From Marinifilum sp. (lineage in GTDB: Bacteria; UBA9089; CG2-30-40-21): 53,488 bases of DNA. A program made the translations under genes and the position numbers. Within the stretch, counting starts at the first letter, position 1; every line of letters begins with the position of its first letter. The DNA lies in the NCBI GenBank assembly GCA_020717845.1, contig DYDG01000002.1:1-53488 (forward strand), given 5' to 3'. Under the pieces are notes generated by a model. The model was not told where the DNA came from and searched no databases. It saw nothing but the letters and a program-made list of their open reading frames with translations. This document shows positions 27,401 to 51,430 of the stretch, one piece after another.

Positions 27401-30400
27401 ACCGTGAATAGGCGGAATGGTGTTCCATAACACATCCTGAGAAATGCTCATCCATCCTGGAACAGTAGAAGCATCTGGCTCTATCTTTACATCTGTAAGG
27501 TGATATGCTTTACCATCAAAATCCCCTAAGTTATTGCAAACCTCTATACGCACCATCGTGCTCTCACCAGAGTGCAGCCTTGAACTATAGAGATTCTCAT
27601 TCTCCCTGCCGCCAACAAATATGGTTGATGCCAGCCCGCCAAACCCATAGCTCCGTAAGTACGGATCCATCTCAAACTGTCGCGGCTCATACGGGTCCTC
27701 AACCTTGATGATATGGTAGATGGTATCGCCATAGTTGCCAATATTCACTGGTGCCACCTTTTTGGTAACCTCAACATTGTTGCCTATACCAAAGACACCT
27801 TGAACATGGGCATTGAATATCTGGTACTGGTTTGGTCCAGCCTTTGGGGTATGATAGACATACTCAGTCCCATCGTTGACCTTCATAAACCCTTCACGGT
27901 GCACATCAGGATAGGTAGTCATGGTAGCATAGACATTAATCTGCTCACGCTTGCCAGCATCTAACCTCTGTTGAAACTGGAGAACATGAAACATATCTGT
28001 ATCAAACTCCTTGACAAGCTGAGTAGGATTGCCAATCTTCTGCAAGTCATCACAACTCCAGTGTCCTCCATACTCAATGTTATACCCAAGCCCCTTGAAA
28101 ACCGAGCAGGTGATAACATTCTGATCCCGATTAAGGTTATAGATATCAGCTGGTTTAACTACATCCGGGAATTCTGTGGAGATATTGCCTGTCTTGATAA
28201 CTAAATGCAGTTTTGCCTTTTTGGTAATATCATACTCAAGGAAGAGTTTTTCATTAGTATCCCAAATGTCATTATTATTCGTATCTTCAAACAACTCAAA
28301 GGTATCATTAACCTCTGGATGCAGCTTGACTGTGGGGAAAAAGTCTGATACCTTAGCATACTGTGGATCCATTGTCCGAAGCGTAGCAGTATGCGGCCTG
28401 TTCCAGATGTCCTGATAGGTAAGCATAGGAATATCAGCCGGGTCTGTTACCCTTGGGGCATATGCCCCGGAGGATGCAAGAAGCTCACGATATGGGATTG
28501 GGTCACCACCAAGCAGGATCATAAACCCGAGTGCCGGGGCATCCATGATTACCTTGCCATTAACCACATAATTATCCGGGATATTGGGCAGGGTCTTCAT
28601 AAGAATGGTTCTGGCATACTCAACCCCGTCTGGCGGCAGCTCAATCGCTCGTATCCCATACCGGATAGCCGGCTCAAGGTAGTCATAACCCTGAATGGTA
28701 GCCCCATCTGTTCCCTTAGCCAGACTGGGCCAGGTGAGTTGATAGGCAGGCAGGATAATATCGCCAGTCTCTGTTTTCTGAATAAGCGGGACATTATGCT
28801 CTGGTCCCCATACTGCGGACTTATACCTGTCTGGAACAACAATATCTGTACTACTCCCCTCTGGCTGCTCAAAGACATAGGTTGTCTTCCCATCCCAATC
28901 ATTGATATTAAACCGCCTCTTTATATCATTCTCTGCCTCTGCTGGAAGCGGGTATTTACCATCCTGGAAAAAGTAGGCCTCATTCTGTATCCAGATAGAG
29001 TGATTATTGCCATTGTTGGTGTTCCAGACCGCAGATGGGATGCGACGATAGTTTGTCGGGTCAATGGCTGGTGAGACAAGTGCTACTAAGTCCTGGATAT
29101 ACACCTTTCTTGCCTCTGTATCCTCCTTGTTTTCAATAGGAAACTTCACATCAAAATGTGTGCCTGCACCAGAGACACCATAAACAGACTGCTTTTCCAG
29201 GGCACGGTCGCCAACAAGCCTGGCTGCCATCTGTGCCCGCATCTTTACCGGCAGGGCATAAACAGTTATTTTCTCGTCCCCTTCAGTATAAACAGCCTTT
29301 GTCTCACAGACCACTGCCTCACCCTTTTTCAAGGCATTTGCCTCGGTAAAGACCGTGTAGCAGAAGGTCAGCCTGCCTTGCAACATTTGATCAAATGTCC
29401 AGCTAAGGATAGTGGTGCCGTCTGTCCCTATTGTCTGTGTAGCCTGCGGGGTTACATTTGAATTGTCTGTTATCTTGAACCCCTTCTGGACAACAGAGAT
29501 AACCTCAACACTATTAAGTGTTGTATTCCAGAAATTAGAAAAGCTAACGCTTACATTTACCGGCACATCCGCCTCTAAGCCCGGGATAACATCCCTTTCA
29601 ACCTCTTCATTGAATTTTTGCACACCATCACAGGCAAGGCCTGCCTTCTGGCTCATTGCCCAGAGCACTGGATTAAGGGCTAAGGGATAGTATTCCCGCT
29701 TATCTGACGGGTGACCGTTCATGAGAATGACCTGTCCACGATTTTTTTCAACAGTTACAATAGCTGGCGGATTGCCAGAGACATTGGTATACCTGGCAAC
29801 CGTTGTCTGCCCTTCCTTGTCTTTAAGCATAGGGTCATCAAGAACATACATATTATTACTCAATCTGGCAAAAACAACCGGGGAGCTGTCATCCAGAATA
29901 CTCATCTGTCCAATGCTGTCTGGGATGCTTACCCTTGTGTTTAGGTCAACCGTGCCTGTGCCAACCAACCCAGCCATCTCAGCAATATAGTTTGACTCAC
30001 CCTGGCTGTATAAAAACCCGCCTGCCTCGACAAATGACCTGAGATTAGTTAACCCGCCAGCTGTAATCGCTCCACGAATTGCATCCATATATCCCTTTTT
30101 TACTGCCGGAAAGATAACCATGTCATAGTTACTCAACGCTCCGCCTGCTATCCCTGCCTCATCAATGCTTGTAAATTTCTGAGCATCCCAGAGGTACATC
30201 CTGAAAAGCCTTTCAAAGTAGCCCTCTTCCCAGGTAATCGGCTGTCCATAGGTATCCTTGACCCCACTGTAAAAAACAGCAACCCTGACCTTTTGTAAGG
30301 AATATGACTTCGTTACCCCGAGAACATTTCCCATACCAACACCCGGCTCACTGACAACAAGATCAAAGCCGGTAAGTGTCCCTACAGCGGTTAAGGTAGA

Positions 30401-33073
30401 AAAGGTTGTCCCACTGCCAGTGGAAAACTCTGAGATGAACGTGCCTCGCAGATAATTTTTCCCATCATACGGCAAGGCATTGCTTGCTGTCCAGGCAACA
30501 GAGCCGCCATTCTTCACATGCTCAAAAATAGCCTTGTAAGCATTCCTTAATTGATCAAGCTCAAGTGGTGAAGTAACAGGATTTGCCTGTTGTCCACCCA
30601 TAGGAATGATCACGCTCTGCGGTAAAAATTGATAGCCCATGCCAAGCGGCTCACCGGTTATTTCCATAGAATAATCGCTGGGATAGTTGTTGGTATTATA
30701 GGCACGAACAGCGATGTAATATTTTGTCCCATTATCAAGACCGGTCAGGGTATAGGTGCAGGCATTACCAGCGTCAACAGGCTGATTGTATGCCTGTTTA
30801 TTAGCTGTAGCCGCACAGGAGATTGTGCCATAATAGACCAAATATCCGCCAACATCAGGGACATTGGTTGGACTCCAACTGAAAATAAGCTGTGAATCCA
30901 TGGCAATGGCTGACAGATTGCCTGGCGGGGCAGGAAATTGTCCAGTAGTAATGCCATAAATACAGTTAGAAAGTGGTGAAAGGTTTCCGGCATCGTCTAT
31001 TGCCTTTAGGGCAAGATAGTATTTGGTGTTAAAGTTTAAGCCAGTGACAGTCCATGTCTGACCACTACCGCCTGCCAAAGGTTGAGGCTCACCAAAAACC
31101 TCTTGACACGATGACCAGCTTGCCTCAGTGATAGGCGAGGTTGAATAGCGAATATCATAGGCTGTAATTGTCCCGCGACTGCCATTATCCCCGGGTGCCT
31201 TCCATGAAATATCAATGGTGCTGGCTGAGACAGTCCCTGCCTTAAGGTCAGTGATATTCCCTGGCATAAGCCTGTCTATGGAGACAATGTTAGACAGCCC
31301 GGAAAAGTTTTTCTCCTCATCCATGGTTTTTATCCCAAAATAGTATTCGTCAGCATTCAAGGAAAGCCCGGAGACAATGGTTACCTGAGCCTGCCCTTCT
31401 TTGGACGGCATAGGTGCATTTGGCACAGATTTAGCATATGCCCAGTTTGCCTCAATTATAGTGGATGTTGAGTATCTAATATCATAGGTGTCTGCATGAC
31501 CTACTGCATCCCTGTGCCAGGTAAATGTACCGTCATCACCCGGCGATGTCCAAACAAGCATCAATGAATTACTGGTTGGGTTAACAATGCCCAGGTCAGT
31601 GATGGTTCCTGGCGAGGTCATGTCCTTTGTCCTGCCAGAGGCGACACTACCACCACTTGGAAAAAGGTTAGACATAGGAGAGGATGAGACACCATCTGAT
31701 GCCTTTAAGGCAAAGTAGTACTGTGTTTCCGGCTGGATGGTGCGGCTGCCAAATGGCTTCTTGAGATCACCATCAGCGATGACAACCATGTGCTCCCTTC
31801 CACCTGCCTCAGACGGGGTTGGGATAATGCCGGGGACGGTCAGGCATGAGTCAAAATTCCCCTCAGTAATAAAAGAGGTTGAATATTTTATGGTATAACT
31901 GCCGGCAATGCCCCCTGCTCCATCGCCGCCCGGTGCTGTCCAGTTTAGTATCATGCTATGATCCGTTGGGTCCATGGCATACCATGTCCCCTCCCATTTA
32001 TACTTGCTGTCAAGGTCTGTAACCTGAGATGGGGCAATGTTGGAGAGAAAGACAGAGGTGGATACTGCCGGAGAGTATTCTGGATAGGATGTAGTGGTCC
32101 CCTGTGTCATGGTCCCCTGATCCTTATAGCAAAAGACAGCGTAATGATAGGTCTCATTAAGCGTAAGGTTGTAGTTGTCCACATGCTCATCCTGCCAGAC
32201 ATTATAGCTGGTTGCCGTAGCATTGTAGATAACCGTAGCTGAACCAATCTTATCACCAACCGTATATGTTGCACCAGTAGTCGGTGTAGCCATGATTTTT
32301 ACTGTATCTCGCAGGATAAGCACACCCTTAAGACAACCTACTGGCGGGTTTTTCCACTTCAATCGGATGCTGTCATTGTTTGACTGGGCAGAAAGGTCTG
32401 TTACTGGATTAATGTTCCAATCTTTAAGGTCAAACCCAAAGGTAACCTTTGCCTTTGCCGGCAGCCTTACGTGAAACATGTCCGCCAATTGAAGGTCAAT
32501 GGTATATGTCCCTGGGGTAAGGTTGTTAAAGGTATATTCTGTATCATTGTGGAAAAATCCCATCCACGGCTCCTGCTTGGTCTGGCTGCCAACCAATGTC
32601 TCCTTCCAGAGTACAACAATAATACTCCCCTCAGCCACCTTATCCTCTCCCTCTCCAGTGGCAGTTAAAGAAAAGTCCTGCACATCGAATTTAGCGGTTA
32701 CCGTGCCATTACTTTTTGTTTGTGTTCCTGGTGTTGGCCAGATAATGCTCAAGCTTGGCACACGTTTACTGGCGGTGAAGCTGACATCAGTGATACTGGC
32801 ATTACTTATGGTACGAGTAGCTGAGCCGGGTGTAAACTTTAAGCCCGACTGCTCCGGGATGATAGTATATGTGCCGGCATTCAATCCGGTAAACTTGAAT
32901 GAGCCAGCAGAATTGGTAAGCACTGCCTTAGAGGCAGCACCAGACAGAGACACGGTGATACTTCCCACAGCAACACCGCCTGTAATCGTGCCACTAATCT
33001 CGTATGCCCAGACAGGCACACAAGCAACAAAATACAACAACGATAGAACCATAACCCTTTTGATAATGTTCAT
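24431..33073 (-). CDS. Giant secreted protein with fibronectin type III domains
   Basis: A 2880-residue exported protein. Signal peptide at 1-24 (ending VWA). Order of parts: a carboxypeptidase-regulatory-like beta domain (25-100, SGTITGG); about five fibronectin type III domains (about 220-810, each with LKWxxP or WTSPGDDG and TKYYxAxKA patterns); a region about 950-1110 resembling a ThuA/glutamine-amidotransferase-like fold; a long central part with DUF11-like beta domains (near 2200-2290); two more type III domains (about 2370-2560); two GWNL...GKGYFVY repeats (about 2575-2720); a metallophosphatase-type Fn3; and a terminal beta domain. It is probably a surface or matrix adhesin. No LPXTG, Por or PEP-CTERM sorting tail is visible. 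A consensus promoter lies upstream and GGAGGG precedes ATG. Confidence 0.85.
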   Translation of the reverse strand: MNIIKRVMVLSLLYFVACVPVWAYEISGTITGGVAVGSITVSLSGAASKAVLTNSAGSFKFTGLNAGTYTIIPEQSGLKFTPGSATRTISNASITDVSFTASKRVPSLSIIWPTPGTQTKSNGTVTAKFDVQDFSLTATGEGEDKVAEGSIIVVLWKETLVGSQTKQEPWMGFFHNDTEYTFNNLTPGTYTIDLQLADMFHVRLPAKAKVTFGFDLKDWNINPVTDLSAQSNNDSIRLKWKNPPVGCLKGVLILRDTVKIMATPTTGATYTVGDKIGSATVIYNATATSYNVWQDEHVDNYNLTLNETYHYAVFCYKDQGTMTQGTTTSYPEYSPAVSTSVFLSNIAPSQVTDLDSKYKWEGTWYAMDPTDHSMILNWTAPGGDGAGGIAGSYTIKYSTSFITEGNFDSCLTVPGIIPTPSEAGGREHMVVIADGDLKKPFGSRTIQPETQYYFALKASDGVSSSPMSNLFPSGGSVASGRTKDMTSPGTITDLGIVNPTSNSLMLVWTSPGDDGTFTWHRDAVGHADTYDIRYSTSTIIEANWAYAKSVPNAPMPSKEGQAQVTIVSGLSLNADEYYFGIKTMDEEKNFSGLSNIVSIDRLMPGNITDLKAGTVSASTIDISWKAPGDNGSRGTITAYDIRYSTSPITEASWSSCQEVFGEPQPLAGGSGQTWTVTGLNFNTKYYLALKAIDDAGNLSPLSNCIYGITTGQFPAPPGNLSAIAMDSQLIFSWSPTNVPDVGGYLVYYGTISCAATANKQAYNQPVDAGNACTYTLTGLDNGTKYYIAVRAYNTNNYPSDYSMEITGEPLGMGYQFLPQSVIIPMGGQQANPVTSPLELDQLRNAYKAIFEHVKNGGSVAWTASNALPYDGKNYLRGTFISEFSTGSGTTFSTLTAVGTLTGFDLVVSEPGVGMGNVLGVTKSYSLQKVRVAVFYSGVKDTYGQPITWEEGYFERLFRMYLWDAQKFTSIDEAGIAGGALSNYDMVIFPAVKKGYMDAIRGAITAGGLTNLRSFVEAGGFLYSQGESNYIAEMAGLVGTGTVDLNTRVSIPDSIGQMSILDDSSPVVFARLSNNMYVLDDPMLKDKEGQTTVARYTNVSGNPPAIVTVEKNRGQVILMNGHPSDKREYYPLALNPVLWAMSQKAGLACDGVQKFNEEVERDVIPGLEADVPVNVSVSFSNFWNTTLNSVEVISVVQKGFKITDNSNVTPQATQTIGTDGTTILSWTFDQMLQGRLTFCYTVFTEANALKKGEAVVCETKAVYTEGDEKITVYALPVKMRAQMAARLVGDRALEKQSVYGVSGAGTHFDVKFPIENKEDTEARKVYIQDLVALVSPAIDPTNYRRIPSAVWNTNNGNNHSIWIQNEAYFFQDGKYPLPAEAENDIKRRFNINDWDGKTTYVFEQPEGSSTDIVVPDRYKSAVWGPEHNVPLIQKTETGDIILPAYQLTWPSLAKGTDGATIQGYDYLEPAIRYGIRAIELPPDGVEYARTILMKTLPNIPDNYVVNGKVIMDAPALGFMILLGGDPIPYRELLASSGAYAPRVTDPADIPMLTYQDIWNRPHTATLRTMDPQYAKVSDFFPTVKLHPEVNDTFELFEDTNNNDIWDTNEKLFLEYDITKKAKLHLVIKTGNISTEFPDVVKPADIYNLNRDQNVITCSVFKGLGYNIEYGGHWSCDDLQKIGNPTQLVKEFDTDMFHVLQFQQRLDAGKREQINVYATMTTYPDVHREGFMKVNDGTEYVYHTPKAGPNQYQIFNAHVQGVFGIGNNVEVTKKVAPVNIGNYGDTIYHIIKVEDPYEPRQFEMDPYLRSYGFGGLASTIFVGGRENENLYSSRLHSGESTMVRIEVCNNLGDFDGKAYHLTDVKIEPDASTVPGWMSISQDVLWNTIPPIHGDLVYLLASQTENPAIYESWKGVLYFKITTNNIPDEAKGKVHPIKFKLSCTDPGGKLTEFRNLSENTTKSIIPEAWIGVYDDQGKITTTYGKANIVTLKDGFPDFVQVEKAKLMTESEKETFIGQMGWDIDQYPRGTSASVYFDGLGAGRDISTTQVGSNVTFKMSSITDPKATATTVPWTYDGTETKTFYVVVKSETAVGTSGMKMVNSGANVEYTDHFSNIGTSASTSQSVVAHGPRVEMGYILDGVRRGFNQVLTKELIMGEKNDVELRITLSNEGDNIANKAKGTVTLGSGVTLGSSSILCRKEGDTVIWDNLGDIAPGAVKEVKITVSITPPAGTTSSAPMLKAASKKAASKSPPIVRAAAPTYTLITTTGINFEDSFTGKKVTPSPKGSLTIMAAPAILTAPNGLVATSHPGSVSLSWNAVTAAKGYNVYRSEGINAGTYTKIAILGTKTSYVDITMDEDITYCYVVTAVDGTEESSQSNPSSAAPGDIWPPATVILKSTVKTESSITLEWTSPGDNGSKGTVTVYDIRRSVSPVAVFDSYSQCDGEPVPIKAGENQNIPITDLQPSTTYYFYLKSCDEIGNWSGLSNKLSITTNAAPTLSTSTRLSQGWNLYSLPLKSSTKYTSQSLGAAINIQSGKCTIVQSWQGGAWKTRKVDVGIGDTFTIEIGKGYFVYCESPSVFTVSGVQVKTQQLQFVPGWNLIGLPIGTMSGRLLGLPSAGTISSNLLGKDIRYQDGTCTVIQSWNNLASKWLTTIFTDGFPDGFADTFDITLGKGYFVYANEGSLYSPNRITLSNVGSNTAVVSYTTWDNVSSWLRYGTNSAVLTNLVYDIRGEGSQTTKHYVNLSGLAPNTTYYYDIITSGSTDDNNEKHYSFKTGGAISAAGSKIVSGKVGGVSKDAMVYVRLRDTDATGDSGVSAWASTRTNSSGAWSVDINTIRKLDMTGLFSYSTSGDTIEVVVDGNEDGRGKKTADTSLTNLGDITLE

Positions 33074-33982: not shown

Positions 33983-34593
33983 TTAGAAATAGGCTGTTTT
34001 ATCCAAAGTTTTTTCAAATTCATCTCTAAATCTTTCAACTATATCTTCATTTTCTTTTTTCCATCGGTTAAACAATTTCGAACATCCGCTTCCCCAATAT
34101 TGTGCTTGGAACATAAACCATTTTTTCATTATTTCTCTATTATCACTAATATTTGCCAAATTCCTAAAACAAACTTGTTGAGTGTATTGTCCTGTTCCAC
34201 CCCAGAAAGGATCGTTTGCAGGTAAATCTCTCAAAAATTCATAAAAAATGTCTTCTGTCCTTTTACCTCCGGGTAACAAAAGAACTCGAGGAATATTGCA
34301 CGGACAATATCCCCATTATCTAATTCAACAGAGTACTTATGTTCTCCTGTTTTATCATTGTTTGGATAAGAAAATCTGAATACTTCCGAAAACTTAATTT
34401 CAAATGGTTTATCACTTATTGTCTTAATATTCTTCCCTTTTTCTCTAAAACTAAAGATATTTCCAGCAAGTCCTAAAATAGATGATTTCCCAGTACCATT
34501 CTGTCCTGCAATTGCAGTTATTAATTTCCCAAATTTTATCTCAATGTTTTCTATGTGCCTAAACTTTTCAATTTTCAATGTATTAATTTTCAT
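33983..34593 (-). pseudogene. Broken AAA ATPase of the restriction-modification operon
   Basis: Two overlapping frames make one degraded gene. The first (34593-34231) starts MKINTLKIEKFRHIENI and has a perfect Walker A (AGQNGTGKSSILG). The second (about 34300-33983) has RVLLLPGGKRTEDIFYEFL, a Trp-rich WGGTGQYT segment and a lysine-rich end. The switch needs a one-base gain or two-base loss near 34293-34298 (ATATT). Even when joined, about 200 residues remain, without a visible Walker B or signature motif, whereas related AAA proteins (SMC/RecF-like) are several hundred residues long. The middle of the gene therefore appears deleted. It overlaps nothing but starts 6 bases after the D12 methylase stop, so it belonged to that operon. 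Confidence 0.7.
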
Positions 34594-34598
34594 AATAA

Positions 34599-35411
34599 TT
34601 ACTTCTCCACAATATCATAATTTGCAATCAACAATTCTTTCCCCTTTTGTGCTGTTTGCTGTTTATAATTGTTCATTCCGTATTGCAATTCCCACTCAAC
34701 CTGATAAAAGTCTCTAAATAATGTTCGGATATATTCATTATTATCATAGGTTATTAACCATTTATGTTTACATTGCTTGAGATTTTCAAAAAATATTTTG
34801 TGATCAAACCCTACATGAAGACACCCCTTTTTCCCATATAACCTTGACTGAGTAGTTGAATAATATGGTGGGTCCAAAAAAATAAACACATTTTCTCCAT
34901 TTCTATATAAAAGCTCAGTATAATCTTTTGGGCTGAATTCTATATGTTTAACAATATTGTAAGCGTTTTCTAATCGCTCAATTGAAGACAGTGTAAATCG
35001 TTTTTCAAATGCTTGTTCTGAATATCCTCCACTATCTACAACACCAGAAAATGTAATTCTGTTTAGTACAAAAAAATCAATTGCTCGCTGAAAATCTGAT
35101 AATGCCTGCTTTCGTTTAGCAATAAGTTCTTGAAATAATTCTCTTCCATTGACATATTCTTTTTTTACTCGGAGGATTTCTTTGATTAAATTATCCTTAT
35201 TTGATTGTAATTCCTTCCAAAAACAATATAAGTCATAATTTGCATCACTTGCATAATACCGAGTAGATGATTTTTTTTGAACACAATAAAATGAAAATGA
35301 CCCTCCTCCAAAAAACGGTTCTCTCAACTCTTCATATTGAGGAATGAAAGCAGAAAGATAGCCTACTGCCCTGGATTTTCCTCCTGGATAACGCAAAGGA
35401 CTCTTAATCAT
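34599..35411 (-). CDS. D12-class DNA adenine N6-methyltransferase
   Basis: About 270 residues of the Dam/DpnM (D12) family. Motif X/I: SPLRYPGGKSRAVGYL and REPFFGGGSFSF bind S-adenosylmethionine; the catalytic motif is FIFLDPPYYST; YDNNEYI follows. It methylates adenine N6 in a short site; the recognition sequence is not readable. The ATG at 35411 overlaps the stop of the nuclease gene by 8 bases (ATGATTAA) and has AGAGGAAAAAAG just before it; the longer GTG start at 35426 is less likely. Together with the nuclease and a second methyltransferase this resembles DpnII/MboI-like operons, which carry two methylases. Confidence 0.92.
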   Translation of the reverse strand: MIKSPLRYPGGKSRAVGYLSAFIPQYEELREPFFGGGSFSFYCVQKKSSTRYYASDANYDLYCFWKELQSNKDNLIKEILRVKKEYVNGRELFQELIAKRKQALSDFQRAIDFFVLNRITFSGVVDSGGYSEQAFEKRFTLSSIERLENAYNIVKHIEFSPKDYTELLYRNGENVFIFLDPPYYSTTQSRLYGKKGCLHVGFDHKIFFENLKQCKHKWLITYDNNEYIRTLFRDFYQVEWELQYGMNNYKQQTAQKGKELLIANYDIVEK

Positions 35412-36555
35412 CTTTTTTCCTCTCACCGTATTCTATTACGACCTCAAAGTTGTTTGCTCTTGCTTCCTTGAACAAGGTATTAACAAATTCTTCTTTATTT
35501 TTCCTGAAACGGTTCTCATGGAAGAATGTTTTAATCTCACTTTCGTTCATATTTGTTGTAATTTTGCCCTGTATTTTTTCGGATGTTAGCCTGAGTACAG
35601 GAATAAAATTGACAAGCGTTTTTGAGTTAATATCTGTTTCTTCATAAAGTTTATCTATATTTGAAAAAAGCATCATCTTGATAAGCCCATCTTTTATATC
35701 ATTTTCTCCAGGTAAAATTGACTTTTTGGAATGTTTGCTTTCGATAAGTTCATACCTGTTGTCATGAATAATCACATCATCAACTGTTAGAAAATATTTA
35801 CCGCCCAAATAATTCTCTATTTCGATAGGTGTTTTTACTCCTACGCTTAATACCTCTTTTGGTTGAGTCGTCCCTATTTCTCTTTTCTGTGCCTGAGCAG
35901 ATTTGAGTCTTGAAAAGGCTAAAAAACTCTCTTGACTTATAATGATACGTTCTCTGAAGGCTTCTATCCCTGCTTCATTATGAAGCTTAACGCCTGTCTT
36001 ATTTGAAATTAGTCGATAACTGAGAATGACTTTTTCCATAAGACCATCTAATTTTTCAGGGCTCAATTGATTTAAGTTCCAGTGTAGAGCAGATGAATGA
36101 TAGTTGGATAACTCCTTTAATTGAGCTTTTACGAAATCACCATCCAACTGTTGTTTTGTTATTCTATTTGGTTTTTGAGCGTCTCGATAATTCTTTTGGG
36201 CATCCATATAATAAGCAAGGATGACATATACATTTAACAAGCTCATTAATTGGACAGTGTCCCATTGGAGATAGTCTATGTTTTGAGAATCTGCTCCTTC
36301 ATCTTTTACAATAGGTATAACCGTAATGGTTTTTCCTCCACAAGTAGATAAAGTGTCATACACACTGGCGAATGGATATGTTCTTGTTCTTTTCGGACCA
36401 GTCCATTTACTGACTGCATAAATTGTATCGTTATCCTTAATACAACATCTTGATTGCCAAGCATTCACATCAGTATCAAATAATACGGTTAACAAAGGGC
36501 TTTTAAGAAAACTTTCGTACCTCATATTCATTATTTTGCCAATTAATTTGGACAT
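35404..36555 (-). CDS. Probable type II restriction endonuclease
   Basis: A 383-residue protein between two methyltransferase genes. No family name is recognised. A PD-(D/E)XK-like catalytic motif is visible: FLTVDDVIIHDNRYELIESK (about 254-273), where an aspartate pair precedes E-x-K on a beta strand, followed by a serine-rich turn and the helix NDIKDGLIKMMLF. The N-terminal 240 residues are mainly helical and could form the recognition domain. A GGGGG ribosome site lies eight bases upstream of ATG. The stop overlaps the D12 methylase start, and the RadC-methyltransferase gene ends 16 bases upstream. Position and motif support a restriction nuclease; specificity unknown. Confidence 0.75.
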   Translation of the reverse strand: MSKLIGKIMNMRYESFLKSPLLTVLFDTDVNAWQSRCCIKDNDTIYAVSKWTGPKRTRTYPFASVYDTLSTCGGKTITVIPIVKDEGADSQNIDYLQWDTVQLMSLLNVYVILAYYMDAQKNYRDAQKPNRITKQQLDGDFVKAQLKELSNYHSSALHWNLNQLSPEKLDGLMEKVILSYRLISNKTGVKLHNEAGIEAFRERIIISQESFLAFSRLKSAQAQKREIGTTQPKEVLSVGVKTPIEIENYLGGKYFLTVDDVIIHDNRYELIESKHSKKSILPGENDIKDGLIKMMLFSNIDKLYEETDINSKTLVNFIPVLRLTSEKIQGKITTNMNESEIKTFFHENRFRKNKEEFVNTLFKEARANNFEVVIEYGERKKDD

Positions 36556-36571
36556 ATTTACAACCCCCTGT

Positions 36572-37687
36572 TTATTTAGTTATTTGGTTTAATCGTTCAA
36601 TAGCATATTGAACATACTTTTCCTGAGTATCAATCCCAATATGTTTCCGTCCTAATTTCTCAGCAACTATATTTGTTTGTCCGCTTCCAGCAAATATATC
36701 GATAACAGTATCGTCTTTATATGAATAAAACTGAATAATTCTTTTGGCTAATTCTTCTGGAAAAGGACAGGGATGAAGATTTTGTTGGGGAGCAACCGGG
36801 GGAATCTTCCAGACATTTTTGCTCAGTTCTCCTTGATAATCTCTCAAATCAATCTTATTTGTTTGCTTATCTTCACGTGAACGAAAGTAGTAGATATTAT
36901 TTTCTTCCTTTTTACCTGCTGGCTTTTGGAAAACCAATACATATTCAGCAACCAAACTTGGATAATAATAACCTGGATATGGGTGTTGCATTAACACACC
37001 GCTTCTCTTATCTTTTGCAATCTCTTTTTCCCAAATAATATCTTCCTTGAACTGCCAGCCTATTTCCTCCATCCATCCTGTAAAATGAAAAGGTAATGGT
37101 ACTCGGATACCGTTCCATCCTACTGGAGAAATATTCACAACATTATATCCTCCTGGCTTAATAATACGATATAATTCCTTAAATCGATCAGTCAAAAATG
37201 TTCGATAAAAGTCGTAGGAAACTTCTTTGCGTGTCCAATACTCGATTTTTCCCTCAAGTTTTTGGATATGTTCCTCATAATTGATAGCGTTATGATATGG
37301 AGGAGAAGTAAAGGCAAGGATAATAGAATCATCAGCAATAGATTTCATAGCTTCCAGACAGTCGCCTTGAATAATTTCTCCTCGTCCAATTTCATGAACT
37401 CTGATCTTCTCTTGTGTCCATTTAAATCGTCTCCCTAATTCTAAGGCTGAAATAATCTGTAACGCTTTCGTGGTTCCAATCCCTGGGAATTCGCTTAATT
37501 TTTCTATAGAAATCGAATTGTTTAGATTTGTGCGGATATATTCAACCAGTTCTTTGCTTAAATCAAAGACATTTTTCCCTTTAGAACCATGCCCCAAAAT
37601 AATAGCAATCAAATCTTCAGTACTTATTTGTGTAGGATTTTTAATTTCAAGTAATTTTTCTCTTGGTTTTTTAGATTCGGTATTCAT
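36572..37687 (-). CDS. RadC-type helix-hairpin-helix domain fused to DNA methyltransferase
   Basis: A 371-residue fusion. Residues about 6-90 match the N-terminal helix-hairpin-helix domain of RadC/UPF0758 proteins: PREKLLE, TEDLIAIILGHGSKGKNV, and LSEFPGIGTTKALQI. The C-terminal JAB/MPN protease domain of RadC is absent. Instead residues about 98-371 form a beta-class amino-methyltransferase: GEIIQGDCLEAM, catalytic TSPPYHN (126-133), and motif I DIFAGSGQTN (about 329-338). SPPY points to N4-cytosine, or possibly N6-adenine. The HhH domain probably helps DNA binding. First gene of the restriction-modification operon, with AAGGTACG before ATG. The fusion is uncommon; the boundary (about residue 90) is clean. 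Confidence 0.85.
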   Translation of the reverse strand: MNTESKKPREKLLEIKNPTQISTEDLIAIILGHGSKGKNVFDLSKELVEYIRTNLNNSISIEKLSEFPGIGTTKALQIISALELGRRFKWTQEKIRVHEIGRGEIIQGDCLEAMKSIADDSIILAFTSPPYHNAINYEEHIQKLEGKIEYWTRKEVSYDFYRTFLTDRFKELYRIIKPGGYNVVNISPVGWNGIRVPLPFHFTGWMEEIGWQFKEDIIWEKEIAKDKRSGVLMQHPYPGYYYPSLVAEYVLVFQKPAGKKEENNIYYFRSREDKQTNKIDLRDYQGELSKNVWKIPPVAPQQNLHPCPFPEELAKRIIQFYSYKDDTVIDIFAGSGQTNIVAEKLGRKHIGIDTQEKYVQYAIERLNQITK

Positions 37688-37865
37688 CGTACCTTAAACT
37701 TCCTGTCTTGAATTCGATTTATTATGATTTCTTAACAAATCGCAGGTGAACTTCACATAATCTTTATTGGAAAACTCCCCTAAATCCACTCTTGAGAGTG
37801 GGTAGGAAGTGTGTAATCCCCTAAACCACTAAAAGCAAATGGCATGGGTGTACTATCATGAAATG
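37688..37865. other. Spacer with a degraded repeat
   Basis: No gene is seen. It contains a degraded palindrome of the CCCCTAAATCCACTCTTGAG / GGTAGGAAGTGTG family also found at 1090-1162. The segment GTGAACTTCACATAATCTTT at 37746-37765 also occurs inside the 840-residue methyltransferase gene near 4715-4740 (AGTGAACTTCACATAATC...TTGGAAAAC), an identical stretch of about 33 bases, so a small piece of that gene has been copied here. Confidence 0.5.
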
Positions 37866-38003
37866 TCAAAGTCCCCATACTTCTTCCATATTCTCAATCT
37901 CCGGATCATCATATCTATTCGCGAGCCATTCAGGCATTTCTTCTTTTATTGATTCCTTCAAAGTAGAAAAAGCTTCTTCCGATATTTTACTTTGCTCATA
38001 CAT
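37866..38003 (-). CDS. 45-residue acidic protein (uncertain)
   Basis: A short frame MYEQSKISEEAFSTLKESI... that ends EIENMEEVWGL. Composition is normal for a real helical, acidic protein, and the frame remains open upstream without a sensible sequence. Its ATG overlaps the stop of the preceding frame (ATGTATGA), an arrangement typical of coupled genes. No ribosome site is clear and no family is recognised. It may be a remnant. Confidence 0.35.
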   Translation of the reverse strand: MYEQSKISEEAFSTLKESIKEEMPEWLANRYDDPEIENMEEVWGL

Positions 38004-38200
38004 GAAAAGGCATTGGTACCTTGTCCTTTGATTCTCGCAAATCCACTTGTCTTTCAACGAACCACAACTCAACAAATGGGGTTTTTCGGACTCGGATTTC
38101 CTTTTTCTGGCTTTGACCACCATCCACTGCAACCTCCAACTTAATAACTGATTCTTCCACAGTAACCTCAACGGCATCCGCAAAAGGAGATACTCAAGTT
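37996..38200 (-). pseudogene. 5'-truncated gene fragment
   Basis: In a frame different from the downstream 45-residue ORF, the minus strand reads SPFADAVEVTVEESVIKL, then GGQSQKKEIRVRKTPFVELW and ends VPMPFHV. It is preceded by an in-frame stop at about 38200 with no ATG between; only a GTG at 38160 could serve. The composition looks coding. I read it as the 3' end of a lost gene. Confidence 0.35.
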
Positions 38201-40945: not shown

Positions 40946-40964
40946 TTCTCACCTAAAAAAACAC

Positions 40965-40993
40965 TTGCAAATCACTACCATTTATGATATAGT
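40965..40993 (+). promoter_or_regulatory. Promoter of the ATPase-PglZ gene, possibly leaderless
   Basis: TTGCAA (40965-40970), 17-base spacer, TATAGT (40988-40993), then TAAAATC and ATGATG at 41001. Transcription would start within a few bases of the ATG, and no Shine-Dalgarno sequence is visible, so the transcript may be leaderless. Confidence 0.6.
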
Positions 40994-41000
40994 TAAAATC

Positions 41001-44000
41001 ATGATGAAGATCAGGGATTTGATTGAAACACCACAGGTTAAAACGGTTATCCAGTTAGAAGATGTGCATTCAAAGGATAGGGGTGTTCTTGAAGAGCTGC
41101 TGAATTCCTTTGTCTTTACTGAAGAGGTATCATTTAACCTTGAAGTACTATTTGATGCCTTTAGTAAACCCACAGGCACAGGCTGTTTTTTGAAAGGCAA
41201 TTATGGCAGTGGAAAGTCACACTTTCTGGCAGTTCTCTCCATCTTGCTGGAACACATGCCTCTGGTTGATAAAAGGGAGATTGCTTCCAGATACTTATTG
41301 AGGGAAAAGAGATTTCTGACGGTTAAGATCCCATTGGTACGCTACCCCAGCTCGCTCAAGTTAGAGGAGATTATCCTCTCTTCTATTGAGAAGGAATTTC
41401 CTACACCTATCATTTTAGCCAACCATAACCGTTTGGTCAATGATTTTAACAAATATATCCTGCCTCAGCACCCAGAATTCCTCAAAGAACGTACCCAGCA
41501 GCAGTGGCAGGGATTAATCCAGGAGGATTCACTGACCGCTGCTCGGGAGATTGTCAGCTACTTAAATACCCTTGAGTCTGTCCCCTTAAAGTATCATTAT
41601 GACCGGGAAGAGGCTTTTGAAAGGATAAGGGCAGCGATTAATGGTGAGGGATTAGTTCTGCTTATTGATGAGCTTTCAGAATTCCTTAAGGCAAAGCAAA
41701 AAACTACTGATTTTAATGAGGATGTGCGTTATCTGCAATATCTGGGTGAGAAGGCAGCATCCTCGCCGCTCTGGATAATTGCCTCCCTGCAGGAAGGGAT
41801 TGAGGAGATAGGCTATTTAGAGGAGGCATTGTTTAACCGCATCAAGGACCGCTATCCAAAACGGCTCACCCTTTCCTCACGCCACATCGAGGAGCTGATT
41901 GACAAAAGACTGATTATCAAGAAACAGGGAGCCACAGCACACATCAGCCAGGTCTACACCAATCTCAGGCACGCCTTCCCACACTTAGTCATGGATAAGG
42001 AGAAATTCATCCAGCTTTATCCAACTCATCCAGCAACCATTCGCATGTTAGAAGGGTTGTCCCTGCTCTTTTCCCAGCATCGCGGGGTAGTTGATTACAT
42101 CCACTACCAGATTGCCGGCGACATGAGCCGACAGATTGAAGGGATGCTGGATAAACCTGCTGACACACTTCTTACCCCTGATACCATCTTTGACCATTTT
42201 AGCCATCGTATCAAGGAGACGGTTGAGATTGCCCCTTATTATAATATTGCCTTCAGCTATTTTCAGCGGGAGATACCTGAGCTCTTTAAGAAAGAGTTTG
42301 ACCAGAAGATTGCCTTAAATCTGGTTAAGCTATTGATCCTTACCGAGCTGTCACCACTGGAAAAAAGGCATACCGTCAGAGAACTCACCAATATGCTGGT
42401 CAAGAAGGTAACAGATCTGGAAAGCGGGTTTAATTATGACTATATCAAAGAGGCTATCTTAGACAGATTGCTGATAGAGGCAGCCTATATTAAGAGTGAG
42501 CCTGCGGAAAATCCTTTAGATGCTATTTATTACCTTGACCTTGAGGCAAATATCAACCAGCTTATTGCCCGCTATACCAAGGAACTCATCAAGGAATTGA
42601 AGACAAAGGAACAAAGTTGTTTGGGGCTGCTTAAGGCTATTAACCCCACCTACCTACCTCTGTCTGGTCTGTCTGAAGGCAGACAGAAACAATTTATCCG
42701 CTGGGAAAATACAACCAGAGAGGGGATAGTAACCCTGTGTGATTTGCGAGACGTCTCATTAAGTGAGATGGAATTGCTTTCTCAAAACCTGCTTAAAGAG
42801 GTAGCACCTCTGGCACAGGAGACAGATTTTGTCCTTTTAATGGGGTTGCCTGTTTCTATTGATGAGCAAAAGGAGTATATCACTAAACTATTGGGTTATC
42901 AGCAGGCTAATGCCCTTTTGCAGAATATTGTTGTCTGGCTGCCAACTTATCTAACCCCGCAGGATGAGGACTATTGTTTTACTACCTACAGCCATCAGAT
43001 ACTTATGCAAAGGTGCCAGAATAATGACCCGCATCAACTCAAGCCTGTCCTGAGCAAGATGGTGGAAAAAGAAATGCCAAGGATGCGTGAAATCTTAACT
43101 GAGGTCTACTTTAGGGGTAGTTTGTTTAATGCCCAGGGAGAGAGGAAAACCGCATTAAAGGATCTGGGTTATCCTGCCTTTGAGCATTTATTAAAGACCA
43201 TATTCAGCCCGCTGCTTTCTTTAAGCTATCCCAAACATACCGAGATTATGCCTTACACAGATTATATCACCCCGCATACCATCGAAACGCTCTGGACAGA
43301 ATTCATCACCCTCGAAAAAATTACCCTGAAGCAGGCACAGGAAAAGGATGTGCAAAATAGTATTGAAACAATTGCTATCCCTATGGGATTGGCTAAAAAA
43401 ACCGCTAATTATTTTATCTTGAATGTAGAGGCAACCAAAAATGAATTAATTATCGATTATCTGTCCCATCTTTTGCCGGGTAAAAGGGTGAAGCTTGAAA
43501 ATCTTTACTGGCGATTGCGTAAAAGCCCATGGGGGATAGACAGACACCAATTTAATCTCCTGACCGCAGCCCTTATCCATACAGGCTATCTCACCCCTTA
43601 CAAGGAAGGACGCATCAGCCCATTTCCTTCACCAGCAAAGCTTTATTCATTTGGGATAGACGAGCTGGGTGAAGGGAAATTATTGGAAAAGGAATATCTT
43701 GAGCTTTTGCCTTTGGGCAATTTTATCTGGGGTGGGGTAAGCAGGACACCCTTTACCCTGATTACCCAACGTCAGCTCTGGGATGAGGCATTGAAATTCA
43801 AATCAAAGACAGACACCAGCCAATCGGCAAGGGTTTATACCCGTTTCAGCGATTATTCGGCATTCAAATCACTCATCGTGGATGAAATCAATAAAATTGT
43901 CTTATCAGTAGAGGATTTTCTGGATGAGATTAAAATAAGCTATGATTCTAAGAATGGCCTGGAGCGAATTCTCTCCTACCTTCAAGAGCATTCTGATGTT

Positions 44001-46229
44001 AGTAATGATTATACTGCCTTTCAAAATTTACTAACCTTTTTCCCCCCCTTTTCTCAATACGCCCAGGAGTATAACCGTATTTATAATTATATCCATCATC
44101 CGCAGCTTTATATTCCAGCTAATGAGGAATTCAGCTATCTGAGGCAGAAAAAGGAGAGGCTTGACACTATCAATTTAAGCGAGATTATCTTTAATGGTGA
44201 GTTTGGGGAGGTGCAAAGCGATTATGGTGACTTTGTTACTGCCTTTGGAGAGGTTTACAGCCAGCACCATCAAGATTATTATAACCAGAGCTATTTCAGT
44301 CAGATAAAGGAATTTCGACAGGAATTGGAGTATAACCTCTTAGAGCGTCTGTCAAGGACAAACCTGATTTCAGTAGAAAATGACCTGGTTTTTATAGAAC
44401 GACTGCTCTCTTCTGGGCAAAAAGAGTGTACAAAAAGATTAAACGAGGAGCTTGAGCTTAAACCTATATGCAGCTGTCAGTATCGACTGGGACAGGAGGG
44501 CTGCTTCCCGAACCTGGAAGAGGTGCGAATGAAGATACGCAGCGGTATTGTGGAATATATTCAGGCAATTAAAGAGCCAAACATCCGTGCCCCACTTGAG
44601 AGTCATATCCGTGGTTTGAGTGAACTCGGCCGTCAGGAGGCAGAAGACTTGAGAAAACTTATTCAACTGGATACCTCTAATCAGGAACGGTTAATCACCC
44701 AGTTGCGTTATCTTCTAACCGATAACCTGATTGACCAATTAAATCAGGCACTTGAAGGCAGACAGCTGATTGTTAAACGGAATCTGGAGGATTTGATTGA
44801 CCGAATTGTCCAACGCAAGTTTCAGAAGGCAAAACTCAAGAAATGCTTTGAGGATTGGCTGGATGGTGGTGAGAAACTCAGCGAAGAGGTTTATGTCTCA
44901 ATTAATTCAGGGAAAACAAATGTTGAGTATGCTGGCTTAGAAGAGATTGTCAAGGAAGAGGACGAAAGATTTTTAACTGCTTTCTGGGCAGTTTGTGCCT
45001 TAGCCCAGCATAAACCTATGGAGGTATTAAGGCAAAGCCTGTTTTTACGCAGCTCTTATCAGATTGACCTGAATCGATTGGATGAGGTTATCAACAAGGG
45101 CAGTGAATTAAAAAAACAGCCGCAAGCTGTAAATCAGATTGAGCTTGCAGAGCAAAGGATAAGGGATCAGAACCAGACAGAGCAGTTTTTAAGGGAGCTG
45201 AACCTTGCTGCCAGGACTGTTGATGAGCTATTGCAGCTGATTGGTGGTGAGGAAATATTCAGGTTTGTGTCCAAAGAGGCGGTCAGGCTGTTGCTTACTC
45301 GATTATTGAGCGAAGAGATCCAGCAGCCATTAAGTATTGAGTTGGTGAGACCTGACTGGTATCACCTGCAGATGGCAAATGATTTGTCCATGCTCCTGTC
45401 GCGGATGAAAAGCTATCAGACAGAAAAGGCAGAAACGGATCTTTTCAATGCCTACATCAACCATATCTCGCCAATCAACTTTTTGATAGAACGGCTTGCT
45501 AATAACAACTTCAGGGAAGGTATTCTGGTTGATAGCACGCTTAAGGAATTGAGACAGAGGGTCAGTCAATTGACTAAGGAGTATCAGCAGCGGTTCTCTA
45601 CAGAGCTGTCAAGGCACAAGCATTGGACAACAGCTGATTTTCTTAAAAAGATATTCCATCCCACCCGGGCAAAATATTCTGAGACAACCTGTTTTATCCT
45701 TATCCTGGACGCTGGCCGCTGGGATGTGTTTGAGTATCTTCTGCCTGACATAAAAGCCTGCCTGTCCAATCACGAATTATCCATGATAACCCCGTTAGAG
45801 GCACTTGAGCCAACAACCACGGAGGTTAACCGCCAGGCAATGGTGGGTGCATTGTTAGAAAAAGAGGAAGAAAAGGCTGAGGCTGTTTTTTATACCTATG
45901 TTGAGGGAATAAACAAACGGGAAGAGATCGGGCAGGTATTAAGCGATGAAAAACCTATCAAAATATTCAACTTCAATTTTATTGACAAGCGGCTTCATAC
46001 CTCCATGCTTGAACCTCCTCTTCTTTACCAGGAGCTCAAGTTAGAGCTAAAAGCCAATATCCTGCCGTATTTCAAGAACATACCCAGACAGAGCCTGATT
46101 TTCATCCTTTCTGACCACGGTTTTTCATATCAGCCATCAAAAAAGGAAGCCTACGCACACGGCGGTAGCTCGGTGTTTGAAAAGGTTGTTCCCTGCGGGG
46201 TATGGGTGCCGAAGGTGGGAAATTGGTAG
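41001..46229 (+). CDS. Large P-loop ATPase (DUF6079/BrxC-PglY-like) with C-terminal PglZ-type domain
   Basis: A 1742-residue protein. Residues about 65-230 hold an ATPase core: Walker A FLKGNYGSGKSHFL (64-77) and Walker B GLVLLIDELSEFL (217-229), matching the BrxC/PglY/DUF6079 group of BREX and Pgl systems. A cysteine cluster KPICSCQYRLGQEGC lies near 1155. Long helical segments follow. The end looks like a PglZ alkaline-phosphatase fold: FILILDAGRWD (about 1563), TPLEALEPTTTEVNRQ with a likely Thr nucleophile (about 1594-1609), and SDHGFSY...AYAHGGSS near 1703-1720 supplying D, H and H metal ligands. All key residues are present. The start at 41001 is preferred over TTG at 40965, which falls in the promoter. 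It is a probable defence gene; no other BREX genes lie beside it. Confidence 0.82.
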   Translation: MMKIRDLIETPQVKTVIQLEDVHSKDRGVLEELLNSFVFTEEVSFNLEVLFDAFSKPTGTGCFLKGNYGSGKSHFLAVLSILLEHMPLVDKREIASRYLLREKRFLTVKIPLVRYPSSLKLEEIILSSIEKEFPTPIILANHNRLVNDFNKYILPQHPEFLKERTQQQWQGLIQEDSLTAAREIVSYLNTLESVPLKYHYDREEAFERIRAAINGEGLVLLIDELSEFLKAKQKTTDFNEDVRYLQYLGEKAASSPLWIIASLQEGIEEIGYLEEALFNRIKDRYPKRLTLSSRHIEELIDKRLIIKKQGATAHISQVYTNLRHAFPHLVMDKEKFIQLYPTHPATIRMLEGLSLLFSQHRGVVDYIHYQIAGDMSRQIEGMLDKPADTLLTPDTIFDHFSHRIKETVEIAPYYNIAFSYFQREIPELFKKEFDQKIALNLVKLLILTELSPLEKRHTVRELTNMLVKKVTDLESGFNYDYIKEAILDRLLIEAAYIKSEPAENPLDAIYYLDLEANINQLIARYTKELIKELKTKEQSCLGLLKAINPTYLPLSGLSEGRQKQFIRWENTTREGIVTLCDLRDVSLSEMELLSQNLLKEVAPLAQETDFVLLMGLPVSIDEQKEYITKLLGYQQANALLQNIVVWLPTYLTPQDEDYCFTTYSHQILMQRCQNNDPHQLKPVLSKMVEKEMPRMREILTEVYFRGSLFNAQGERKTALKDLGYPAFEHLLKTIFSPLLSLSYPKHTEIMPYTDYITPHTIETLWTEFITLEKITLKQAQEKDVQNSIETIAIPMGLAKKTANYFILNVEATKNELIIDYLSHLLPGKRVKLENLYWRLRKSPWGIDRHQFNLLTAALIHTGYLTPYKEGRISPFPSPAKLYSFGIDELGEGKLLEKEYLELLPLGNFIWGGVSRTPFTLITQRQLWDEALKFKSKTDTSQSARVYTRFSDYSAFKSLIVDEINKIVLSVEDFLDEIKISYDSKNGLERILSYLQEHSDVSNDYTAFQNLLTFFPPFSQYAQEYNRIYNYIHHPQLYIPANEEFSYLRQKKERLDTINLSEIIFNGEFGEVQSDYGDFVTAFGEVYSQHHQDYYNQSYFSQIKEFRQELEYNLLERLSRTNLISVENDLVFIERLLSSGQKECTKRLNEELELKPICSCQYRLGQEGCFPNLEEVRMKIRSGIVEYIQAIKEPNIRAPLESHIRGLSELGRQEAEDLRKLIQLDTSNQERLITQLRYLLTDNLIDQLNQALEGRQLIVKRNLEDLIDRIVQRKFQKAKLKKCFEDWLDGGEKLSEEVYVSINSGKTNVEYAGLEEIVKEEDERFLTAFWAVCALAQHKPMEVLRQSLFLRSSYQIDLNRLDEVINKGSELKKQPQAVNQIELAEQRIRDQNQTEQFLRELNLAARTVDELLQLIGGEEIFRFVSKEAVRLLLTRLLSEEIQQPLSIELVRPDWYHLQMANDLSMLLSRMKSYQTEKAETDLFNAYINHISPINFLIERLANNNFREGILVDSTLKELRQRVSQLTKEYQQRFSTELSRHKHWTTADFLKKIFHPTRAKYSETTCFILILDAGRWDVFEYLLPDIKACLSNHELSMITPLEALEPTTTEVNRQAMVGALLEKEEEKAEAVFYTYVEGINKREEIGQVLSDEKPIKIFNFNFIDKRLHTSMLEPPLLYQELKLELKANILPYFKNIPRQSLIFILSDHGFSYQPSKKEAYAHGGSSVFEKVVPCGVWVPKVGNW
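42798..42819. repeat. Palindromic repeat A copy in the ATPase gene
   Basis: GAGGTAGCACCTCTGGCA, identical to the unit in the YfhO gene, is read in frame as EVAPLA (context LLKEVAPLAQETD). Because the sequence is continuous here it could be chance or insertion. Confidence 0.6.
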
Positions 46230-50732: not shown

Positions 50733-51122
50733 ATGGATGTCAAAGAAAAGATAGAATATTGGCTTGATATTTCTTGCTATGATATGGACACTGCAGAGGC
50801 AATGCAAAGAAGTGGAAGATACCTGTATGCTGTTTTTATGTGTCAGCAAGCCATAGAGAAGCTATTAAAAACTCTTCATATTCAAAAGCTTGGGACAGAG
50901 TCCCCTTTTTCTCATAATTTGGTTTACCTCCAGAGCTTGCTTGATATTAGTCCTGATAAATCCTATTTAGAATCAATGGCAGAGTTGACTGCCTATTACC
51001 TGGAAGGACGGTACCCTACTTATAAGCAGAAACTCTCTTCGTTAATCACTCAAGAGAAGGCAGAAGATATTTTGAAGAAAACAAAGGAAATATTTCAATG
51101 GTTAATATCTCTCCTGAAATAA
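50733..51122 (+). CDS. HEPN-domain protein
   Basis: A 129-residue helical protein of the HEPN family (PF05168-type): YWLDISCYDMDTAEAM, then YAVFMCQQAIEKLLKTL, then SHNLVYLQSLL, and YYLEGRYPTY near residue 95. The RxxxxH ribonuclease motif of toxic HEPN proteins is not obvious; the conserved basic residue is in GRYP. HEPN proteins pair with MNT nucleotidyltransferases as toxin-antitoxin modules or as small signalling pairs. Ribosome site AGAGGTGTTGA. The MNT start lies within its last 25 bases, so the pair is coupled. Confidence 0.88.
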   Translation: MDVKEKIEYWLDISCYDMDTAEAMQRSGRYLYAVFMCQQAIEKLLKTLHIQKLGTESPFSHNLVYLQSLLDISPDKSYLESMAELTAYYLEGRYPTYKQKLSSLITQEKAEDILKKTKEIFQWLISLLK

Positions 51123-51430
51123 GAAAGGCTATTATGAGTTATATTGGTGAAATAAATAATATCTGTTCAATAGATAAGGCTATTGTCTTTGGATCATATG
51201 CCTCAGGACATCATTCTCTAAATAGTGATATTGATATAGCCATATTTTCCAGAGAGATTAACGATAATAACCGTCTGGAATTTACAAAAACCTTCTTTAT
51301 GAAGATTGATAAGTATAAATTGGATATTCAACCTTTAGCTTTTGCTTTGACTGACCTTATGAATGAGAATAATGACTTTATTATTAATGAAATAAAAAAT
51401 AAGGGGATAGAAATATATAGTCGGGGTTAA
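51098..51430 (+). CDS. MNT-type nucleotidyltransferase
   Basis: A 110-residue minimal nucleotidyltransferase. The catalytic motif is GSYASG...SDIDIAIFS with both aspartates, and a third acidic site lies in YKLDIQPL. MNT proteins of this type transfer AMP to a tyrosine of the partner HEPN protein and so inactivate it in known toxin-antitoxin pairs. Here the order is HEPN then MNT with a 25-base overlap, a common arrangement. Ribosome site AAAGGAAATATTTCA. It could also modify another target. Confidence 0.88.
   Translation: MVNISPEIRKAIMSYIGEINNICSIDKAIVFGSYASGHHSLNSDIDIAIFSREINDNNRLEFTKTFFMKIDKYKLDIQPLAFALTDLMNENNDFIINEIKNKGIEIYSRG

Follow-up and report, generated by a model that had tools for sequence, protein, structure and literature searches.

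The window, a stretch of 53,488 nucleotides, carries at 40965-46229 of the forward strand an open, intact reading frame with a TTG start, inside which an ATG gives an alternative start (41001/41004-46229). The upstream promoter-like block and the onset of homology among relatives favour the ATG as the start: homology to the relatives sets in at the block, at ~40955, and at methionine 41001/41004, which gives a protein of ~1,742 residues, and the single frame of 1742 residues described in an earlier note on this DNA was found to be intact and open. The promoter-like block has 9 of 12 consensus matches and a TG extension in a consensus scan, such matches also arising by chance, and is kept in the copies of the genomes G001, G005 and G006 despite differing outer flanks, with homology beginning at 40955. 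The mRNA of this gene is probably leaderless. The features are listed in Table 1, and residues are numbered from the methionine at 41001 as residue 1.

Table 1 Features of the fusion gene and its upstream block, with the evidence for each.
Feature	Position	Strand	Evidence
Promoter-like block TTGCAA-17-TATAGT, ~7-10 nt before the ATG	40965..40993	+	Consensus scan, conservation
BrxC/DUF6079-PglZ fusion gene, 1742 aa	41001..46229	+	Open frame; Pfam, PADLOC and NCBIfam; homologues; dN/dS 0.11
N-terminal ORC/Cdc6-type AAA+ domain (boundary approximate)	41001..42350	+	Foldseek, profile against PDB
Walker A, GNYGSGKSH	41196..41222	+	G, G and GKSH invariant in 12 family members
Walker B region with D223 and E224 (LLIDELSEF)	41655..41684	+	DELSEFL core invariant in the family
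Middle and C-terminal region of BrxC type, with alpha+beta and helical segments predicted	42351..44687	+	DUF6079 profile
C-x13-CxC motif (C1143, C1157, C1159), possible metal site	44427..44477	+	Conserved in the fusion family
PglZ domain (alkaline-phosphatase superfamily), all metal-site positions present	45687..46226	+	Profiles, hhalign, Foldseek, alignment

Elsewhere in the window, a Type II restriction-modification (RM) cassette at 34231-38183 encodes a restriction endonuclease, a D12 methylase and an N6/N4 methylase with a UPF0758/RadC N-terminal domain. The cassette separates the genes of PTH and a penicillin-binding protein (PBP), which abut each other in the sister genomes G001 and G003 and are separated by one other gene in G002. 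Two overlapping large genes at 1797-6664 gave several Type II methylase matches and a weak PglXI match. A HEPN/MNT toxin-antitoxin-like pair lies at 50733-51430; in G002 and G006, similar small gene pairs are located close to the fusion. The window's 24431-33073 encodes a very large secreted-looking protein of 2,880 aa with apparent fibronectin-type repeats, as seen from reading the sequence.

Two folds in one protein

The N-terminus had been described as a BREX/Pgl-type ATPase with Walker A and B motifs; both motifs were found, and the family conserves them. This part of the protein matched Pfam DUF6079 at 6.7e-35 and PADLOC BrxC at 1.2e-26; the NCBIfam BrxC model matched it as well, but under its equivalog cut-off. 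The fold was checked with HMM profiles and Foldseek, and solved BrxC was the best structural match: the family profile found solved BrxC chains in the PDB at 5.5e-16, and the best Foldseek matches of the N-terminal model were the solved BrxC chains 9zll/9zdx, followed by ORC/Cdc6 proteins. The AlphaFold model used, of residues 2-1195, had a mean pLDDT of 84 and a pTM of 0.48, and because of the latter the arrangement of its domains is uncertain. In the G092 homologue, the DUF6079 profile alignment spans residues 741-1305. A motif similar to C-x13-CxC occurs in the Halorarius BREX BrxC, and no CxC was present in three other DUF6079/BrxC proteins compared.

Pfam PglZ run directly on the window protein gave no match at E values up to 1, and the identity of the C-terminal domain was therefore established through homologues, other profiles and folds. 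The Pfam PglZ cut-off was reached by the frameshifted homologue of G003 (30.4 bits; its neighbours are in frame), PADLOC PglZ matched the C-terminus of the window protein at 8.3e-5, and hhalign against two BREX PglZ proteins gave probabilities of 94-95%. With the family profile, the C-terminus matched solved PorX at 4e-9 and Salmonella BREX PglZ at 9e-5. All 18 Foldseek matches with E <0.001 were PorX or BREX PglZ entries, with PorX on top, and no non-PglZ fold appeared among the top matches; the TM-scores were modest (0.35-0.47 on the query) and the rmsd large, so that the match is that of a domain and not of one rigid whole. The alkaline-phosphatase-superfamily motifs claimed near the C-terminus were recovered in full: seven metal-site positions (D1570, T1605-1607, D1662, H1666, D1705, H1706 and H1720) are invariant among nine aligned homologues, and T1607 is aligned by hhalign to the Thr common to BREX-3 PglZ. 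As aligned, this is the predicted metal-site set expected of PglZ. Taken together, the matches at the two ends of the frame go far beyond chance.

Judged from sequences and predicted models, the BrxC-PglZ fusion is real, with both folds present and the active-site motifs intact in both. All genomes concerned are draft assemblies, which might suggest that the fusion arose as an artefact of assembly or frame; such a reading is in practice refuted by continuous frames in seven genomes (G000, G001, G002, G005, G006, G092 and G136) with 23-88% identity to the window protein.

Distribution and genome context

Broken copies counted, 7 of the 19 genomes of the phylum carry the fusion gene. It is full-length in G000, G001, G002, G005 and G006, frameshifted in G003, and in G013 it ends before PglZ. 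Beyond the phylum, the fusion was found in two unrelated lineages (G092 and G136), and a homologue in G166 is interrupted by a contig end. The BrxC-like part occurs without a fused PglZ in G095, G105, G237 and G259, where a search with the family C-terminal profile gave no convincing PglZ. In G095 and G237 the PglZ-less gene lies within a conserved chromosomal block of nine genes, a setting that is unlike that of a typical defence gene. In G259 two genes, located on different contigs (L087:2036-4657 and L088:8745-10319), share the BrxC-like protein between them, and G283 has a lone PglZ protein of 517 residues related to the fusion C-terminus (L092:190-1743), with a BrxC-like gene on another contig (L115:3808-7536). 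The G002 fusion (L018:5153-11086) is lengthened to 1,978 residues by in-frame insertions resembling a dispersed repeat, another copy of which lies upstream at L018:972-1503; a different in-frame repeat, THSLNA, is present in the G006 copy (L016).

A further search of 386 genomes centred on G105 gave no new fusion carriers, and a scan of genome contigs led to a single contig, that of G001 (L015). In collections of phages, plasmids and viral contigs no copy of the fusion was found, the matches covering the N-terminal part as an ordinary BREX BrxC does. No viral contig was found with the narrow family alignment, and at the loci to which the broader alignment led, the match was confined to the query's N-terminal part; the plasmid matches likewise covered this part only, and the three loci examined were BREX loci.

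In BREX systems the ATPase and PglZ are normally separate proteins, and the PglX gene normally belongs to the locus. The earlier note held that no PglX, BrxL or BrxA/B-type gene adjoins the fusion, and this agrees with our results. No PglX/BrxX methyltransferase or PT apparatus adjoined the fusion in the window or at the homologue loci examined, no BrxA, BrxB or BrxL was recognised among the neighbouring genes scanned, where small and fast-evolving ones could escape notice, and next to none of the fusion or PglZ-less homologues was a canonical BREX set recognised. Across the lineages surveyed, the homologues keep the fusion in every case without a BREX set. No HerA/FtsK translocase, STAND NTPase or DUF4007 was recognised among the window neighbours, nor any gene of the BREX-Related Capture (BRC) type near the homologues, where neighbouring ORFs were judged by reading only. 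By the criteria applied, the fusion locus is not a BREX system, yet it is built of BREX parts.

The earlier note considered a methylase encoded elsewhere as a partner; a methylation-dependent BREX-like system of this kind, using for example the Type II enzymes of the window, appears highly improbable to us. Candidates do exist in the window, namely its Type II RM genes (34.2-37.7 kb) and large methylase genes (1.8-6.7 kb); however, the methylase models that match best are those of Type II, PglXI scoring far lower, a BREX PglX gene normally sits in the locus, and neither these RM genes nor any other methylase was recognised beside homologues in the stretches examined. With no conserved neighbourhood to support it, the partnership was rejected.

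Selection and horizontal transfer

Comparison of the window copy with its relatives gave a dN/dS of ~0.11 for the whole gene and 0.14-0.22 for the PglZ domain, and hence both halves are maintained, under purifying selection. A lone gene with broken copies in two relatives could be taken for the decaying remnant of a BREX locus, but the low dN/dS, the retention of all catalytic positions in intact copies and the sharing of the fusion by several lineages leave little room for such an origin.

The window protein is 81-82% identical to those of G005 and G006, which belong to another family, and 43-47% identical to those of G002 and G003 from its own genus, whereas the neighbouring PBP shows the reverse pattern (85% with G002, 76% with G003, 48% with G005 and G006). 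In the tree, the G000 and G001 copies group with those of G005 and G006 at full support. Judging by these comparisons, the window copy is horizontally acquired. Nucleotide homology is limited to the gene and ~46 bases upstream, consistent with transfer as a solitary cassette. In the same tree the fusion-family proteins, unlike canonical BrxC, form a branch of their own, apart from three canonical BrxC proteins; the branches are long, and the root is therefore unsure.

Co-occurrence with a TPR protein

A TPR protein of ~330 residues is encoded directly upstream of the family gene, in the same direction, in G002, G092 and G166, which represent three lineages. Single-copy orthologs (490-530 bits) were found in 5 of the 7 carriers of the phylum (G002, G003, G005, G006 and G013) and in none of its 12 non-carriers, where the best TPR match had 71 bits; the hypergeometric probability of such co-occurrence is 0.0018, shared ancestry being ignored. 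G105 also has a clear relative (161 bits). In G000 and G001 no ortholog was found, the best matches having 53 and 59 bits, and since these draft genomes are 94% and 96% complete, the absence is likely but unproven. The window copy therefore appears to have come, or stayed, without the TPR protein. The co-occurrence, with the apparent absence from the window's genome, is both the main new finding of this analysis and its main puzzle.

The description of the fusion as a single-gene system thus holds in part. In the window it is solitary, no second DUF6079 or PglZ gene having been found in the genome; for the family the term may be wrong, because the TPR protein co-occurs with the fusion and is often adjacent to it. 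Tentatively, the two may form a two-gene system that derives from BREX parts and does not depend on DNA modification; ATPase and nuclease would be joined in a single molecule, with the TPR protein either sensing the invader or holding the enzyme in check.

Comparison with known systems

Like BrxC (PglY), the fusion has an ORC/Cdc6-type AAA+ N-terminus, a DUF6079 profile match and solved BrxC as the closest structure; unlike BrxC, it bears a C-terminal PglZ, with no PglX, BrxA, BrxB or BrxL recognised alongside. The fold and metal-site residues of its C-terminus are shared with BREX PglZ and the PglZ domain of PorX. In contrast to BREX PglZ, this domain is not encoded by a separate gene and has no Type 1 PglZ C-terminal extension, and no separate N-terminal PglZ domain was recognised; like PorX, the chain stops right after the HGG..E..P motif, but it has no receiver domain.

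BREX-Related (BR) and BRC systems use BrxC-like (DUF6079) or DUF499 ATPases, and BRC and Type-3 BR use PglZ outside classical BREX (PMC12839542). These systems are multi-gene, combining a separate PglZ with a methylase and helicase or with HerA, STAND or DUF4007, none of which was recognised at the fusion. Type-3 BR consists of a DUF499 ATPase, a DUF1156 methylase, a helicase and a separate PglZ, whereas here a DUF6079 ATPase and PglZ are fused. The sections of PMC12839542 consulted make no mention of a BrxC-PglZ fusion, and literature searches on PglZ fusions found no paper with such phrases. As far as the literature and libraries searched go, the fusion is undescribed.

Proposed mechanism and role

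How BREX restricts phages is largely unresolved (PMC12205998). BrxC binds double-stranded DNA when ATP-bound and its AAA+ domain binds BrxB:PglZ, BrxB being the proposed bridge (PMC13326643). By analogy with BrxC, the ATP-loaded N-terminal part of the fusion would bind double-stranded DNA and multimerise; the C-terminal domain would, on the model of PglZ, nick DNA or cleave oligonucleotides with the help of metal ions. The covalent fusion would stand in for the BrxB bridge, bringing PglZ to DNA without BrxB, so that ATP-gated assembly on DNA would put several nuclease domains there. In the usual form of the family the TPR protein may act as an adaptor, sensor or regulator; the window's genome appears to be without it, and this copy may therefore act alone or with an unrelated partner. 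By such analogies, the fusion is probably an ATP-dependent DNA-binding nuclease with a putative anti-invader function.

We incline, with some reserve, to the view that the BrxC AAA+ ATPase and the PglZ nuclease form a self-contained unit in one chain, most likely for defence against invaders without a methylation mark. Patchy presence in the phylum and the damaged copies of G003 and G013 speak for defence, and we also count for it the Type II RM cassette, which adjoins the same PBP/tRNA block as the fusion and is absent from sister genomes. The stable chromosomal positions of the PglZ-less relatives in G095 and G237 argue for caution, and that no copy of the fusion turned up in the phage, plasmid and viral-contig collections also counts against defence. 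A cellular role, in which an ORC/Cdc6-like ATPase with a TPR adaptor would act on host DNA or in signalling and a PorX-like PglZ would cleave oligonucleotides or a second messenger in a lineage-restricted manner, is less probable than not, but it keeps an appreciable weight because of the nine-gene synteny around the PglZ-less form and because the TPR genes of G003, G005 and G006 stand beside housekeeping genes (alaS or pheT-type), diverge like vertical genes and look vertically inherited. That PorX ranks first among the structural matches to the C-terminus points the same way; the restriction of the gene to those seven genomes of the phylum and a few others, its horizontal transfer into G000 and G001 and the broken copies point away from such a role.

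Returning to the self-contained ATPase-nuclease, a natural single-chain BrxC-PglZ suggests that the two activities cooperate directly, without BrxB, methylase or BrxL, and with one or two proteins as against six it is a simple test object. If it serves in defence, the question becomes how self is distinguished from non-self when there is no methylation; if the cellular role is true, BREX parts have host functions beyond defence.
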